Of a stretch of DNA of 23,122 nucleotides, positions 7,809 to 12,973 are shown in pieces. The stretch lies in IMG/VR virus record IMGVR_UViG_3300035670_001285, positions 1-23,122 of that record; one strand, given 5' to 3'. This DNA is from a virus. The notes beneath the pieces were generated by a model. It had not been told where the DNA came from. It saw only the letters and a program-made list of their open reading frames with translations, and searched no databases. The stretch's first letter is position 1. Each line of letters opens with the position of its first letter. A program made the position numbers and the translations under genes.

Positions 7809-9341
7809 ATGTGGAACCAACTAAAACAATACGGAAGGGGGCTGCTTAGAAAATTGGGATTAATTAAAGAGTTAAAGAGCTTGAAAGAACATAAACAGAT
7901 TAATGTAGACGAAGAAGAATATAATCGCATTGATTTTAATAAGCGTTTATATCAAGGGCATGTTAAAGAATGGCACGACCTTCGTTATAAAGGAACGATG
8001 GGAATGATTGAGCGTCGACAGATGACTTTGAACATGCCTAAAGTGCTGGCGAAAAAAATGGCACGGTTAGTGATGAACGAAGGCGTCAACATTTCTCTTG
8101 CTAAAAACAGCGAAAAAGAGAACCAATGGGAGCTTGTAAAAGGTGTGTTCAACTCAAACAAGTTCATCAGAGAGTTTCAACGCTACCTTGAATACATGTT
8201 TGCGATGGGGGGCGTGGCTTTAGAAGTTTATCTCGATGGAGAAAAACCAAAGATAGCTTATGCGACCGCAGACGCCTTCTTTCCGTTGTCAAACGACACT
8301 GAACAAGTAGATGAAGCAGTTATCGCAAATCAATTCAAAGATGGCGAAAACTACTACACGCTCTTGAAATGGCACGAATGGGGCGATTTTACTGACGAAG
8401 AAGGCGAAACATATAACTATCGGATAAAAAACGAGTTATTTGTGAGTAAAAAGCGTGACGTTCTTGGAGAAAGAGAGTCGCTTTCGTCTTACTTTGAAGA
8501 TATGGAATCAGTTACTTATTTCAATCGTGAATCACCACTGTTTATTTATATCAAGCCAAACGAAGCGAACAACAAAAATATATCAAGTCCGTTGGGTATA
8601 TCCGTTTTTGAGAATGCCTATGACACGATTCGTATGCTCGACGTAATGTACGACTTTTGGTACAACGAGTTTCGGCTTGGTAAGAGACGTGTAGCGGTAC
8701 CTGAATATTTGGTTAAGACTGCGCACGATAGGAACGGTACTCCATATGTATACTTTGACGATTCCGAAGAATTGTTCGTTGCGATGAATTCTAGCGAAAT
8801 GGAAGACATGCAAATAAAAGACTTGACCGTCGACTTGCGTGTTGAACAAGTGGTCGATTCTATTCAAGCGATGCTGGACATGTTGAGTATGCAAGTCGGT
8901 TTATCCGCTGGAACGTTTACATTTACAAATCAAGGGATGAAAACAGCTACGCAAGTCGTATCAGAAAACAGCGAAACGTATCAGACACGAGCGAGTCATC
9001 TATCTGTTATCGAAGACGCTTTGCGCGATTTAATCGTTGCTGTATATGAAGTCGTAACGTTAGACGATGATGAAGATGATAAAAACGAACCATTAGACCG
9101 CATGGATATTTCAATCGATTTCAACGATGGCGTATTTACAGATTCGCAATCTTTATACAACTATTGGGCGCAAGGGTATAAAGACGGTCTAGTGCCGATG
9201 GAACAAGCGCTCAAGCGTATTTATAAGTTATCTGATGACGAAGCAAAAGAATGGGCGGAAGGATTGAGTCAAGACGGACAACGAAATGTGTTGACGAGAC
9301 GCCGAGCTTTAGCACAAGCAGAATTGGAGCTTGAACGATGA
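7809..9341 (+). CDS. Portal protein, A118 family
   Basis: This encodes 510 residues from the ATG at 7809, with AAAGGTGG 8 nt upstream; a TTG at 7806 is in frame but less likely. Portal proteins form the dodecameric channel at the head vertex through which DNA enters and leaves. The sequence has the A118-type portal layout: a basic N-terminal helix, WHDLRYKGTMGMIERRQMT and LNMPKVLAKKMARLVMNEG, a beta-rich middle (VALEVYLDGEKPKIAYATAD, AFFPL), then SSPLGISVFENAYDTIRMLD and AMLDMLSMQVGLSAGTFTF followed by the MKTATQVVSENSETYQ segment. Its acidic C-terminus overlaps the minor capsid start as ATGA. Position between terL and minor capsid protein is standard. Confidence 0.92.
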   Translation: MWNQLKQYGRGLLRKLGLIKELKSLKEHKQINVDEEEYNRIDFNKRLYQGHVKEWHDLRYKGTMGMIERRQMTLNMPKVLAKKMARLVMNEGVNISLAKNSEKENQWELVKGVFNSNKFIREFQRYLEYMFAMGGVALEVYLDGEKPKIAYATADAFFPLSNDTEQVDEAVIANQFKDGENYYTLLKWHEWGDFTDEEGETYNYRIKNELFVSKKRDVLGERESLSSYFEDMESVTYFNRESPLFIYIKPNEANNKNISSPLGISVFENAYDTIRMLDVMYDFWYNEFRLGKRRVAVPEYLVKTAHDRNGTPYVYFDDSEELFVAMNSSEMEDMQIKDLTVDLRVEQVVDSIQAMLDMLSMQVGLSAGTFTFTNQGMKTATQVVSENSETYQTRASHLSVIEDALRDLIVAVYEVVTLDDDEDDKNEPLDRMDISIDFNDGVFTDSQSLYNYWAQGYKDGLVPMEQALKRIYKLSDDEAKEWAEGLSQDGQRNVLTRRRALAQAELELER

Positions 9342-10081
9342 TATTTCAACAATTCCAAACCATTGAATGGATGATAGTGCAAGAAATTATACGTTTGCTG
9401 GCTTACGAAGAAGGCGAAGCGATTCGATCGTGGGCAAACCAGCGTATCAGCCAAACAGACGAACTTGTGGAGTTCGTTATTAGCGTGCTGTCGTCTAGTC
9501 GCTCACAAATTATGGAAGCAGTGGAAACGGATGTACAAGCAGCGTTTGAGTTGATTCAAGAGCATATGCGGCAAGAGTTCGATGTCGAAATAGAAATGGA
9601 TGACGAGCATGTCGGTCGAGTGGTTGAGTATTTGAACCGAGATGTCATGCGTGCGTTACCTGAAACGGCAGAAAAGTCGTACTTATCTATTATCGAACAT
9701 GTACGTGAGAGCGAAATAACGGACGATTCAGACCTTTCTACGGTTATAAGTACTATCTTATTGGAAGACCTCGAAAACGGTCTGAAAAGTGGGTTTATTC
9801 AATCAGACGGAGTGCGATGGTCGTTAGATAGGACGGTCTCGCATATCGAAAAAAGAATCTATCATGATACGTTTAATCGTGCGTTTGAACGTTTGCGATT
9901 TGCTGGTGTAGAGCTAGTGAGAGTGTTCAAGTTCGCTAATTGTCGAGACGCTTGCTTAACTTTGCAAGACAGCGGAATAATTTGCATTGTGCCAGAGAAC
10001 GAAGCGAGCGAAGAAGCAAGGCAGTATCCAAATATTTGGGATCCCTCTCATAAATACAGAGAAGCGGATGGTCACCGAGGT
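9338..10081 (+). CDS. Phage minor capsid protein 2, exon 1 (interrupted by group I intron)
   Basis: This exon encodes 248 residues, starting at an ATG overlapping the portal stop (ATGA). The protein belongs to the minor capsid protein 2 group, related in role to SPP1 gp7/MuF proteins that sit inside the head near the portal. The C-terminal part of exon 1 carries the family features FANCRDACLTLQDSG, YPNIWDPSHKY and GHRG. Unspliced translation would add only KPINAS and stop at 10102. The exon boundary after 10081 is inferred from P1 and P10 pairing of the intron and from restoration of the GHRG-INCRH motif with exon 2. The spliced product is 294 residues. The truncated unspliced form lacks the conserved Cys-Arg-His block and is probably non-functional. 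Confidence 0.88.
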
Positions 10082-10151
10082 AAACCAATTAATGCCTCGT
10101 AACAATGTGAACCTTATTACTCAAGGGTGTTCTATTATACGGTATCAATTG

Positions 10152-10180
10152 TAGACATAGGAACGATTGTTTGGTATAAT
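10152..10180 (+). promoter_or_regulatory. Promoter inside the intron, driving the endonuclease
   Basis: TAGACA (10152-10157, five of six to consensus) and TATAAT (10175-10180, perfect) have a 17-nt spacer, and TGG directly before the -10 makes it an extended -10 (TGnTATAAT). Transcription would begin near 10187, at the P4 strand, about 55 nt before the endonuclease ATG. Such a transcript lacks P1 and the 5' splice site, so it could serve translation of the endonuclease without splicing. Confidence 0.6.
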
Positions 10181-10241
10181 AGAGCTAACGGGGAAACCTC
10201 TAGAAGGCAATCCCGTGCTAAGACTTGAAAGGGTGGTTCAT

Positions 10242-10886
10242 ATGTCAACTGGTGTTTACAAAATCACGAATAAGTTAAACGGTAAGGTTTATATAGGGTC
10301 TAGTACAAATTTGGAGCAGAGGAAAATGGACCACTTTAAACCGTCAACTCTTGTTAGTCACAGAAGTCATTTGCCTCTTTACCAAGATATCAAATGTTAC
10401 GGGGTTGAAAATTTTAATTTTGAAGTGATTGAGTATTGCAAAGAAGATGAGTTGGTCCAAAGAGAAGACTTTTATCTATCTAAAGTTCAGGGATCTGATT
10501 GCTATAACTCTGTTTACAAATCGATAACGATGCATGATGAAGAGTTTTCCGAAGCTAATAGCAGAAGGCTCACTGAAATGAATAAACGTAAATGGAAAGA
10601 CCCTGAGTATAGAAGACAAAGATCCGAAACTTCAAAAGCATACCAAGCAACAGTTCCTTACGAGGAACGCGCTAAATCTATTGAAGGACTAAATAAGTAT
10701 ACAAACTCAATCAAACTACCAGTTGGACAATATGATAAAGAAGGAAACCTTATAGCTACATTCGAAGGAGTTCGTGAGGCTGAAAGAGCCATGAACTTAC
10801 CAAATGACACAATAGGCAAAGTGTGCCGAGGTGTGAAATATCGAAAAACAGCTGCCGGTTTCGTTTGGAAATACCTAGACAAGTAA
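10242..10886 (+). CDS. GIY-YIG homing endonuclease encoded in the intron
   Basis: This encodes 214 residues from the ATG at 10242, with AAAGGGTGG 5 nt upstream. The open frame continues to 10167, but that part is intron core sequence (P4-P5). The enzyme should cut the intronless allele and so spread the intron. The catalytic GIY-YIG domain (about 1-92) shows GVY (4-6), YIG (17-19), Arg27, His31, His40 and Glu75, at the same residue numbers as the catalytic residues of I-TevI. Residues about 103-130 (RRLTEMNKRKWKDPEYRRQ) look like a NUMOD3-type DNA-binding motif. The C-terminus (LPVGQYDKEGNLIATFEGVR, AERAMNLPNDTIGKVCRG) looks like NUMOD1/IENR-type. Base composition is somewhat more AT-rich than the flanking exons. 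All key residues are intact, so it is probably active. Confidence 0.92.
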   Translation: MSTGVYKITNKLNGKVYIGSSTNLEQRKMDHFKPSTLVSHRSHLPLYQDIKCYGVENFNFEVIEYCKEDELVQREDFYLSKVQGSDCYNSVYKSITMHDEEFSEANSRRLTEMNKRKWKDPEYRRQRSETSKAYQATVPYEERAKSIEGLNKYTNSIKLPVGQYDKEGNLIATFEGVREAERAMNLPNDTIGKVCRGVKYRKTAAGFVWKYLDK

Positions 10887-10911
10887 AGCGTAGAGACTAT
10901 CGAAAGCAATT

Positions 10912-10936
10912 AAGCATCCGTTATGGGTGCTTTTTT
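10912..10936 (+). terminator. Hairpin plus T run after the endonuclease gene (P7.1-like)
   Basis: AAGCATCC (10912-10919) pairs with GGGTGCTT (10925-10932), eight pairs with one G-U, followed directly by a run ending in TTTTTT (10931-10936). It looks like a rho-independent terminator for the endonuclease message. It also lies just 3' of the first P7 strand, where subgroup IA introns carry their extra P7.1/P7.2 stem, so the same element may be a structural part of the ribozyme. Confidence 0.55.
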
Positions 10937-11044
10937 AGTTAGTAGAGTAGGGCGGAAGATGAGTTGCCGTTCGAAGCGCATTGCACGCTGATATAGCGTG
11001 AAGATATAGTCCGATACTCACGGCGACGTGAGAAAACATAAATG

Positions 11045-11185
11045 ATTAATTGTCGTCATGCTTGGCATAATATTAACGCAGAAACAGACAGAACCAAAAC
11101 GTTGTACGAACGAGTGGATGAAATTGGGTTGCAATTAGAAATCTATCGTTTGAGATTTAAGAATATGCTTCGAAGATACCTGTAA
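11045..11185 (+). CDS. Phage minor capsid protein 2, exon 2
   Basis: This exon encodes 46 residues and the TAA. It has no start codon or SD of its own and becomes readable only when joined in frame to exon 1 (744 nt, a multiple of three). It begins with INCRHAWHNI, which completes the GHRG-INCRH motif conserved at the C-terminus of minor capsid protein 2 homologues. A charged helix follows (DRTKTLYERVDEIGLQLEIY, FKNMLRRYL). The conserved Cys-His cluster is thus encoded on both sides of the splice junction, a typical choice for homing introns, which favour the most conserved positions of a host gene. Confidence 0.85.
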   Translation: MNCRHAWHNINAETDRTKTLYERVDEIGLQLEIYRLRFKNMLRRYL

Positions 11186-11409
11186 AGGTGGTGGTGCCCT
11201 TGTTAATCGATGTTAACGACTAAGAAGGGAGTAGTGATCCAAATGCTGAAAAATGCTGTATCTCGCTTGTTTTGAGCGTTATCAATAACAAACCTCGCCC
11301 AAAGTTGCTGAAGGCGTTAAAAGCTGTAAATTTCGCTCGCTTAGGCGTTACATAAGCTAACCTACCGGAGTCGTTGCTCCGTTACAAAATCGAAAGGGGA
11401 AATTTAGTA
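11186..11409 (+). promoter_or_regulatory. 224-nt structured leader upstream of the scaffold gene
   Basis: No substantial gene fits here. The stretch holds two diverged copies of a unit of about 68 nt, several short hairpins (CGCT/AGCG at 11264-11267 and 11274-11277; CGGAG/CTCCG at 11366-11370 and 11377-11381) and tiny ORFs with SD-like sequences, such as an ATG at 11243 (MLKNAVSRLF, stop 11275). The CGGAG hairpin lies just before the scaffold SD (AAAGGGGA). It may be a regulatory leader adjusting the supply of scaffold and capsid. No known riboswitch or leader family is recognised. Confidence 0.4.
11251..11388 (+). repeat. Diverged tandem repeat, about 68-nt unit, two copies
   Basis: Copy A starts at 11251 (AAATGCTGTATCTCGCTTG) and copy B at 11319 (AAAAGCTGTAAATTTCGCTC). 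Both go on through GCGTTA, then AACCT, GTTGCT and GTTA at matching positions with small gaps. The order of shared words is the same in both copies, which supports duplication rather than chance. A shorter direct repeat (AAATGCTG at 11241 and 11251) precedes copy A. Confidence 0.5.
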
Positions 11410-12022: not shown

Positions 12023-12973
12023 ATGACAAAATTATTAAAAATGGACATCCAGCACTTTGCTCCTCGAGCAGAGAACTATCCAGAACCAAATACGCAAATG
12101 CAGGAAAACTTTAGTAATTTAGACGCTCGTTCTATTGATTACACTTATCGCTTCGGCGAGAACTTTAGCAAATTTGTTGAAGCATTAGGTATTACTCGTC
12201 AAATTCCAGTGCAAGAAGGGTTTACATTAAAAATGTACACTGCCCCAGAAGTTGACTTGGCAGATGGAGATGTGGGAGAAGGCGAATTGATTCCACTTTC
12301 TAAAGTGACGCCTCAACCTGCTGATGAAATTGAAATCACGTTGAAAAAATATCGTAAAGTAACTACTGCCGAAGCTATTCAACGTTATGGACGTGATGAA
12401 GCGATTAACCGTACAGACGATGCGATGATTCGCGAGATTCAAAAAGGCATTCGTGATTATTTGTTTGACGTAATCAAAACACACGGAACAGAACAAGTAA
12501 ACTTGAACGCTGGTACATTGCAAGGTGCATTAGCTTCTGCTTGGGGAGCGTTAGAAGTCTTGTTTGAAGATGACGTGATTACCACTGTTGCGTTCGTCAA
12601 TCCTATGGATGTTGCGAAGGAAATTGCAAACAAAGAAATTACACTCGAAACTCAATTCGGGTTGCGTTACTACACTGATTTGACTGGAACGGTCGTTATG
12701 TTAAATAACACAATTCCACAAGGAACAGTATATGCAACTGCTGCGGACAATCTTCAAGTAGCGTATATTTCAGCTGGATCTGACGCTTTCCAAGAATTCA
12801 ACATGTATACGGATGAATTTGGATACATTGCTATGGCTCATGGACAACAGTTAGAAACGTTGTCTGTTCAAACGGTTGCAGCTTCTGGTGTATTAATCTT
12901 CCCAGAGCGTTTAGATGGAATGGTTAAGATTGAAATTGATGCACCTGCTGAAGCTCCAGATCCACAAGCATAA
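12023..12973 (+). CDS. Major capsid protein
   Basis: This encodes 316 residues, SD GAGAGGA 7 nt before the ATG. It forms the icosahedral shell and is probably HK97-fold. The N-terminus MTKLLKMDIQHFA is the short leader often seen in Firmicutes phage capsid proteins, and it is repeated at the start of the tail tube gene. The sequence then shows YTYRFGENFSKFVEALGITR, a charged beta segment (LIPLSKVTPQPADEIEITLK), the helix-rich stretch AEAIQRYGRDEAINRTDDAM, and VAFVNPMDVAKEIANKE with GYIAMAHGQQLETLSVQT near the end. Length and position after the scaffold fit A118-type capsid proteins. It is not followed by a CCC-T frameshift site, unlike the tail tube gene. Confidence 0.9.
   Translation: MTKLLKMDIQHFAPRAENYPEPNTQMQENFSNLDARSIDYTYRFGENFSKFVEALGITRQIPVQEGFTLKMYTAPEVDLADGDVGEGELIPLSKVTPQPADEIEITLKKYRKVTTAEAIQRYGRDEAINRTDDAMIREIQKGIRDYLFDVIKTHGTEQVNLNAGTLQGALASAWGALEVLFEDDVITTVAFVNPMDVAKEIANKEITLETQFGLRYYTDLTGTVVMLNNTIPQGTVYATAADNLQVAYISAGSDAFQEFNMYTDEFGYIAMAHGQQLETLSVQTVAASGVLIFPERLDGMVKIEIDAPAEAPDPQA

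Follow-up and report, generated by a model that had tools for sequence, protein, structure and literature searches.

Phage head genes interrupted by a group I intron have a precedent in the Cluster J mycobacteriophage LittleE. The virion genes affected are its major capsid gene and, in BAKA, another siphophage of that cluster, a minor tail gene; both introns probably belong to group I, and their splicing was proven by RT-PCR (PMC3706429). The LittleE intron also carries a putative homing endonuclease gene, which is LAGLIDADG-like and antisense. In phages of Gram-positive hosts, group I introns interrupt a packaging gene, the terminase gene, in the Bacillus phages Silence and Moonbeam, where they carry an endonuclease gene, and in the Lactobacillus phage LL-H (PMC4599081, PMC4299906). 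The T4 td intron encodes the GIY-YIG endonuclease I-TevI and contains a promoter that does not depend on the gene it interrupts. According to the passages of the source that treat it, this is a late promoter, combined with a hairpin hiding the ribosome site and with autorepression, and those passages describe no terminator inside the ribozyme (PMC2988022).

We analysed a window of 23,122 bases, the whole of an IMG/VR record. Its positions 10082-11044 represent, with a probability of about 0.96, a mobile group I intron that interrupts the minor capsid gene of a siphophage, the host of which is probably Gram-positive; predicted splicing would join GHRG to INCRH. The intron shares its class and its kind of target with those of LittleE and BAKA, but lies in a different gene and in a phage of a different host. 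It likewise differs from the Silence, Moonbeam and LL-H introns in both gene and site. The initial annotation had called a structural head target noteworthy. Splicing was already demonstrated in 2013 for a siphophage major capsid gene and a tail gene (PMC3706429), and introns are also on record in terminase genes (PMC4599081, PMC4299906), which makes the target less unusual than supposed. The insertion site, on the other hand, was not found described: our literature search, with most subscription journals outside its scope, retrieved no report of an intron in a Phage_min_cap2 gene. The site thus appears to be an undescribed, recurrent homing target within a head gene that is widespread among phages, common to at least 14 viral or prophage loci, and unless the intron is corrected for, the minor capsid gene reads as a truncated protein.

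Splice sites and host gene of the predicted intron

The head module of the window comprises the genes for the large terminase (6416), an SPP1-type portal (7806), the minor capsid protein (9338) and the scaffold (11374), followed at 12023 by a gene that probably encodes the major capsid protein and lacks a Pfam match. The minor capsid gene is interrupted after GGT, within the most conserved motif of its family, GHRG|INCRH.

9338-10081, + strand: exon 1 of the Phage_min_cap2 gene, 248 codons, ending in ...GHRG
10082-11044, + strand: predicted group I intron, 963 nt, phase 0
11045-11185, + strand: exon 2, INCRHAWHNI..., 46 codons plus TAA

As the initial annotation had claimed, joining 10081 to 11045 keeps the frame and recreates the motif (...DGHRG-INCRHAWHNI..., 294 aa), with all coordinates confirmed. 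The last base of the intron is G11044, and the unspliced frame runs into a stop at 10100-10102, six codons past the 5' splice site, giving 254 residues that end in KPINAS. Such an early in-frame stop is a common arrangement (review PMC3984707). Joining the exons raises the Pfam score for Phage_min_cap2 (PF06152) from the 26.0 bits of exon 1 alone to 44.1 bits (+18), and that for PHROG_581, the minor head protein, from 38 to 60 bits (elsewhere stated as +21 bits); both gains stem from about seven added residues.

The six pairs of P1, including the U-G pair at the splice site (U10081.G10094), were recovered as annotated. The P10 pairing also stood, but its count of seven pairs (10087-10093 with 11045-11051) did not, as C10086-G11052 extends it to eight. 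By chance, P1-like 6-bp sites alone are frequent (187 on the + strand of the window), while a full 8-bp Watson-Crick P10 is possible at only 3 of 23,122 positions, or at 8 of them when G-U pairs are allowed, and the correct one falls at the protein-conserved junction. A short AT-rich P10 is nevertheless unconvincing by itself, and the case for the predicted intron rests on covariation and on the empty alleles. In the covariance-model search suggested with the initial annotation, the Rfam group I model RF00028 matches 10908-11033 on the correct strand (E 7e-4), but its 29 bits stay below the gathering score of 50 bits, probably because the endonuclease gene splits the core.

Even when joined, the protein is shorter than most of its relatives (294 aa versus 344-392 aa in six same-site phages). 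Exon 2 supplies 46 residues, compared with 85-114 in L010, L014, L017, L019, L021 and L022, and the minor capsid protein of the window lacks the usual C-terminal tail.

Same-site introns, empty alleles and the ribozyme core

Two search patterns, one linking the group I 3' core to the INCxH codons and one built for the 5' domain, revealed that 13 more loci, an Oceanobacillus prophage among them, are interrupted at this very base by a related intron (L010, L013, L014, L015, L017, L018, L019, L020, L021, L022, L025, L026 and L068; the 5' part is incomplete in L015, L020 and L025). L010 has the same sequence at the site as L027, so that one occupied allele lies in a named strain, Oceanobacillus neutriphilus CGMCC 1.7693. 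The L014 intron also occurs in L016 and L043, L018 is close to L080, and L026 belongs to Candidatus Gallilactobacillus. A variant of the 3' core, GACATAGTC, yielded only chance matches as a search pattern, and the candidates L009, L011, L012, L023 and L024 were likewise discarded as chance matches. In L025, a MAG contig, a CRISPR array upstream of 2881-2940 on the reverse strand is continuous with the endonuclease gene and the 3' part of the same-site intron; the assembly probably joined the two at a spacer that matches the intron's endonuclease gene exactly and would thus be directed against the intron.

Among the best 80 viral relatives, the junction motif is unbroken in 72 and split by an intron in two, the remaining six being left unclassified. 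The homologue alignment proposed with the initial annotation came out as predicted: the intronless proteins continue as GHRG[IV]NCxH through the junction, those of Enterococcus, Bacillus, Streptococcus and Lactobacillus phages having G-x-x-G-[IV]-N-C-x-H across it. In a wider alignment, G276, G279, N281, C282 and H284 (reference numbering), all near the junction, are among only 15 invariant columns. The empty allele of L101 and the occupied one of L022 share 75% DNA identity over 120 bases around the site. A search for close relatives with the joined protein found nothing.

The structure was derived with RNAalifold and arm-by-arm pair counts, omitting the endonuclease region, from nine introns (eight for P9, since the L068 intron lacks the P9 hairpin while keeping the other core helices). 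This yielded P1, P3, two helices between P3 and P4, P4-P5, P6, P7, P7.2, P8 and P9, of which the following, together with the P10 guide, are located in the window:

10076-10081 with 10094-10099, + strand: P1, 6/6 pairs; 53/54 cells paired, 3/6 positions compensatory across the same-site introns
10086-10093, + strand: P10 guide, pairing with 3' exon 11045-11052; 8 pairs, 46/54 cells
10103-10109 with 10977-10983, + strand: P3, 5' strand CAAUGUG; 63/63 cells paired, 3 compensatory positions
10129-10136 with 10178-10185, + strand: peripheral helix between P3 and P4; 72/72 cells paired, 5 compensatory positions
10189-10215, + strand: P4-P5 (P4, 10189-10192 with 10212-10215); P4 36/36 cells paired
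10895-10899 with 11007-11011, + strand: P7, invariant in all same-site introns and fully paired
10950-10955 with 10967-10972, + strand: P7.2; 53/54 cells paired, 4 compensatory positions
10984-10988 with 10996-11000, + strand: P8; 45/45 cells paired, 5/5 positions compensatory
11017-11022 with 11027-11032, + strand: P9; 48/48 cells paired, 4 compensatory positions

P1, P3, the long P3-P4 helix, P4, P7.2, P8 and P9 have two to five compensatory positions each, and their observed pairing was reached in 0 to 10 of 2000 shuffles. P7, being invariant, is uninformative on covariation. P10 covaries over the same-site set but is weaker (15 of 2000 shuffles reach the observed pairing), particularly in L017 and L019. 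Since P1 and P10 change along with the exon codons, the splice sites are tied to the ribozyme. Between P7 and the 3' strand of P3 lies the P7.1/P7.2 region that marks group IA, with a clear, covarying P7.2 and a P7.1 that is weak in members bearing a terminator-like hairpin; the predicted intron is accordingly placed in group IA, at a level above IA1/IA2. Comparison of the same-site introns thus establishes the predicted catalytic core and splice sites, and the original claim that a group I intron splits the gene exactly at GHRG/INCRH is borne out by homologues, same-site introns and covarying pairings.

From this anatomy and covariation, the ribozyme would fold in the pre-mRNA, exogenous guanosine would attack after U10081, and the freed exon 1 would then attack after G11044, joining GHRG to INCRH. 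The short head protein would also suit a decayed intron that has lost splicing, the phage either making do with the truncated product of 254 residues or being a defective prophage. We consider this very unlikely, as pairing is perfect in all core helices, the GIY-YIG reading frame is uninterrupted and the exon 2 residues lie within the most conserved motif of the family. Phage head genes split beside endonuclease genes do occur, and a free-standing homing endonuclease gene might have been inserted without a ribozyme, simply dividing the host gene into two proteins. Against this stand the flanking P1-P10, the core helices, the covariation with exon codons and the restoration of the conserved motif, in frame, by exact removal of the intron, which together make such an insertion extremely improbable.

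Endonuclease gene and putative transcription signals

The group I intron holds an endonuclease gene in its P6 loop and, outside that loop, promoter- and terminator-like elements.

10152-10180, + strand: sigma-A-like promoter, TAGACA-17-TATAAT with extended -10 (TGGTATAAT); 11/12 consensus bases, the -10 overlapping an arm of the peripheral helix
10242-10886, + strand: GIY-YIG/NUMOD1 homing endonuclease gene, 214 aa, in the P6 loop
10912-10936, + strand: intrinsic-terminator-like hairpin, AAGCATCC-GTTAT-GGGTGCTT plus T run, inside L7.1, 3' of the endonuclease gene

The encoded protein combines a catalytic domain (PF01541, 39.7 bits, E 6e-10) with a NUMOD1 DNA-binding module (PF07453, 26.4 bits, E 8e-6), both exceeding the cut-off; in the annotated phage collection, no endonuclease is as much as 60% identical to it. 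Its gene is antisense within the introns of L013, L015, L018 and L068. The start of the endonuclease gene (GGTTCATAT) might pair with ATGTGAACC in the P3 region, much like the I-TevI ribosome-site hairpin, but this pairing was dropped, as the other introns do not have it. The enzyme would cut intronless alleles at the conserved GHRG[IV]NC codons, and repair of the break would bring in the intron.

A strong sigma-A-like promoter lies upstream of the endonuclease gene in 10 of 11 same-site introns, as compared to 3 of 20 introns elsewhere, in the early-type genes for RecT, DNA polymerases A and III, an AAA ATPase and a PAPS-reductase-like protein (Fisher p 6e-5, a value that ignores the shared ancestry of related introns and so overstates significance). 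The terminator-like hairpin occurs in 7 of 14 same-site introns, in two unrelated sequences. That of the window recurs in L010, L017, L020, L021 and L022 with conserved arms and variable loops, and L026 has an unrelated hairpin and T run at the same place in L7.1. It is missing from all four antisense members and from L014, L019 and L025, which are forward-endonuclease introns without a terminator. Outside this site, none of 46 intron loci, a set with some near-duplicates, has such a hairpin in L7.1. Introns with the 5' signature GTGAACCYYATTRCYYARGGGTGT interrupt further phage genes, among them RecT, DNA polymerase A and III and tape-measure-like genes, and in each gene the insertion sites recur (L039-L095). 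They belong to the same ribozyme family and mostly carry GIY-YIG-like endonuclease genes, but these reside in early-type genes, mostly without an internal promoter and never with the L7.1 hairpin.

As the interrupted gene is a late one, the endonuclease gene is probably driven by its own sigma-A promoter. The L7.1 hairpin may, with less certainty, halt its transcript short of exon 2 and of the genes for scaffold and capsid. Tentatively, then, and at somewhat less than even odds, the ribozyme could harbour a whole transcription unit, consisting of the sigma-A promoter, endonuclease gene and intrinsic terminator, in which the L7.1 terminator keeps early endonuclease transcription out of the late capsid genes that follow, relatives reversing the endonuclease gene instead. 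The probability given above for the intron does not extend to this terminator step. If intact, the terminator would, besides, impede the late transcripts that have to pass it to yield the capsid mRNA.

The promoter- and terminator-like elements could also be by-products of the ribozyme helices (the AT-rich P3-P4 helix and the long P7.1) with no transcriptional role, a serious prospect that would affect the cassette only. In keeping with this, the -10 box overlaps a paired arm, same-site introns share descent, and the nine promoter-like sites in a 5.6 kb region are fewer than in shuffles. Yet the extended -10 is kept where the helix sequence differs (L014, L017), and two unrelated hairpins with T runs occupy the same loop. 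Moreover, the antisense-endonuclease introns L013, L018 and L068 use a different promoter (TTGCAA-17-TATAAT or TATGAT) directly upstream of that gene, so that the promoter trait appears to have arisen more than once. If the nested cassette is real, it bears on how intron-borne endonucleases can be expressed from late genes without disturbing them. The insertion site and the packing of promoter and terminator into the intron look undescribed, and the regulatory arrangement is possibly new.

Neighbouring and related elements

A noncoding element, GCCCAAAN(1-3)TGCTNAAGGCGTTAAAAGSTGYAAA, occupies 11286-11335 of the window, some 77 nt ahead of the scaffold frame. It also precedes scaffold-type genes of Staphylococcus, Streptococcus and other phages, mostly by 66-97 nt, and was found in 39 viral contigs (28 distinct copies, including that of the window), some with dissimilar scaffold proteins. 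It has no Rfam match and is perhaps an undescribed scaffold-gene leader RNA. In Streptococcus phage Str-PAP-1 (L217, 2495-3974), the annotated tape measure is divided around two genes for homing endonucleases, one with a GIY-YIG match and the other with an HNH match, perhaps reflecting another unrecognised intron pair.
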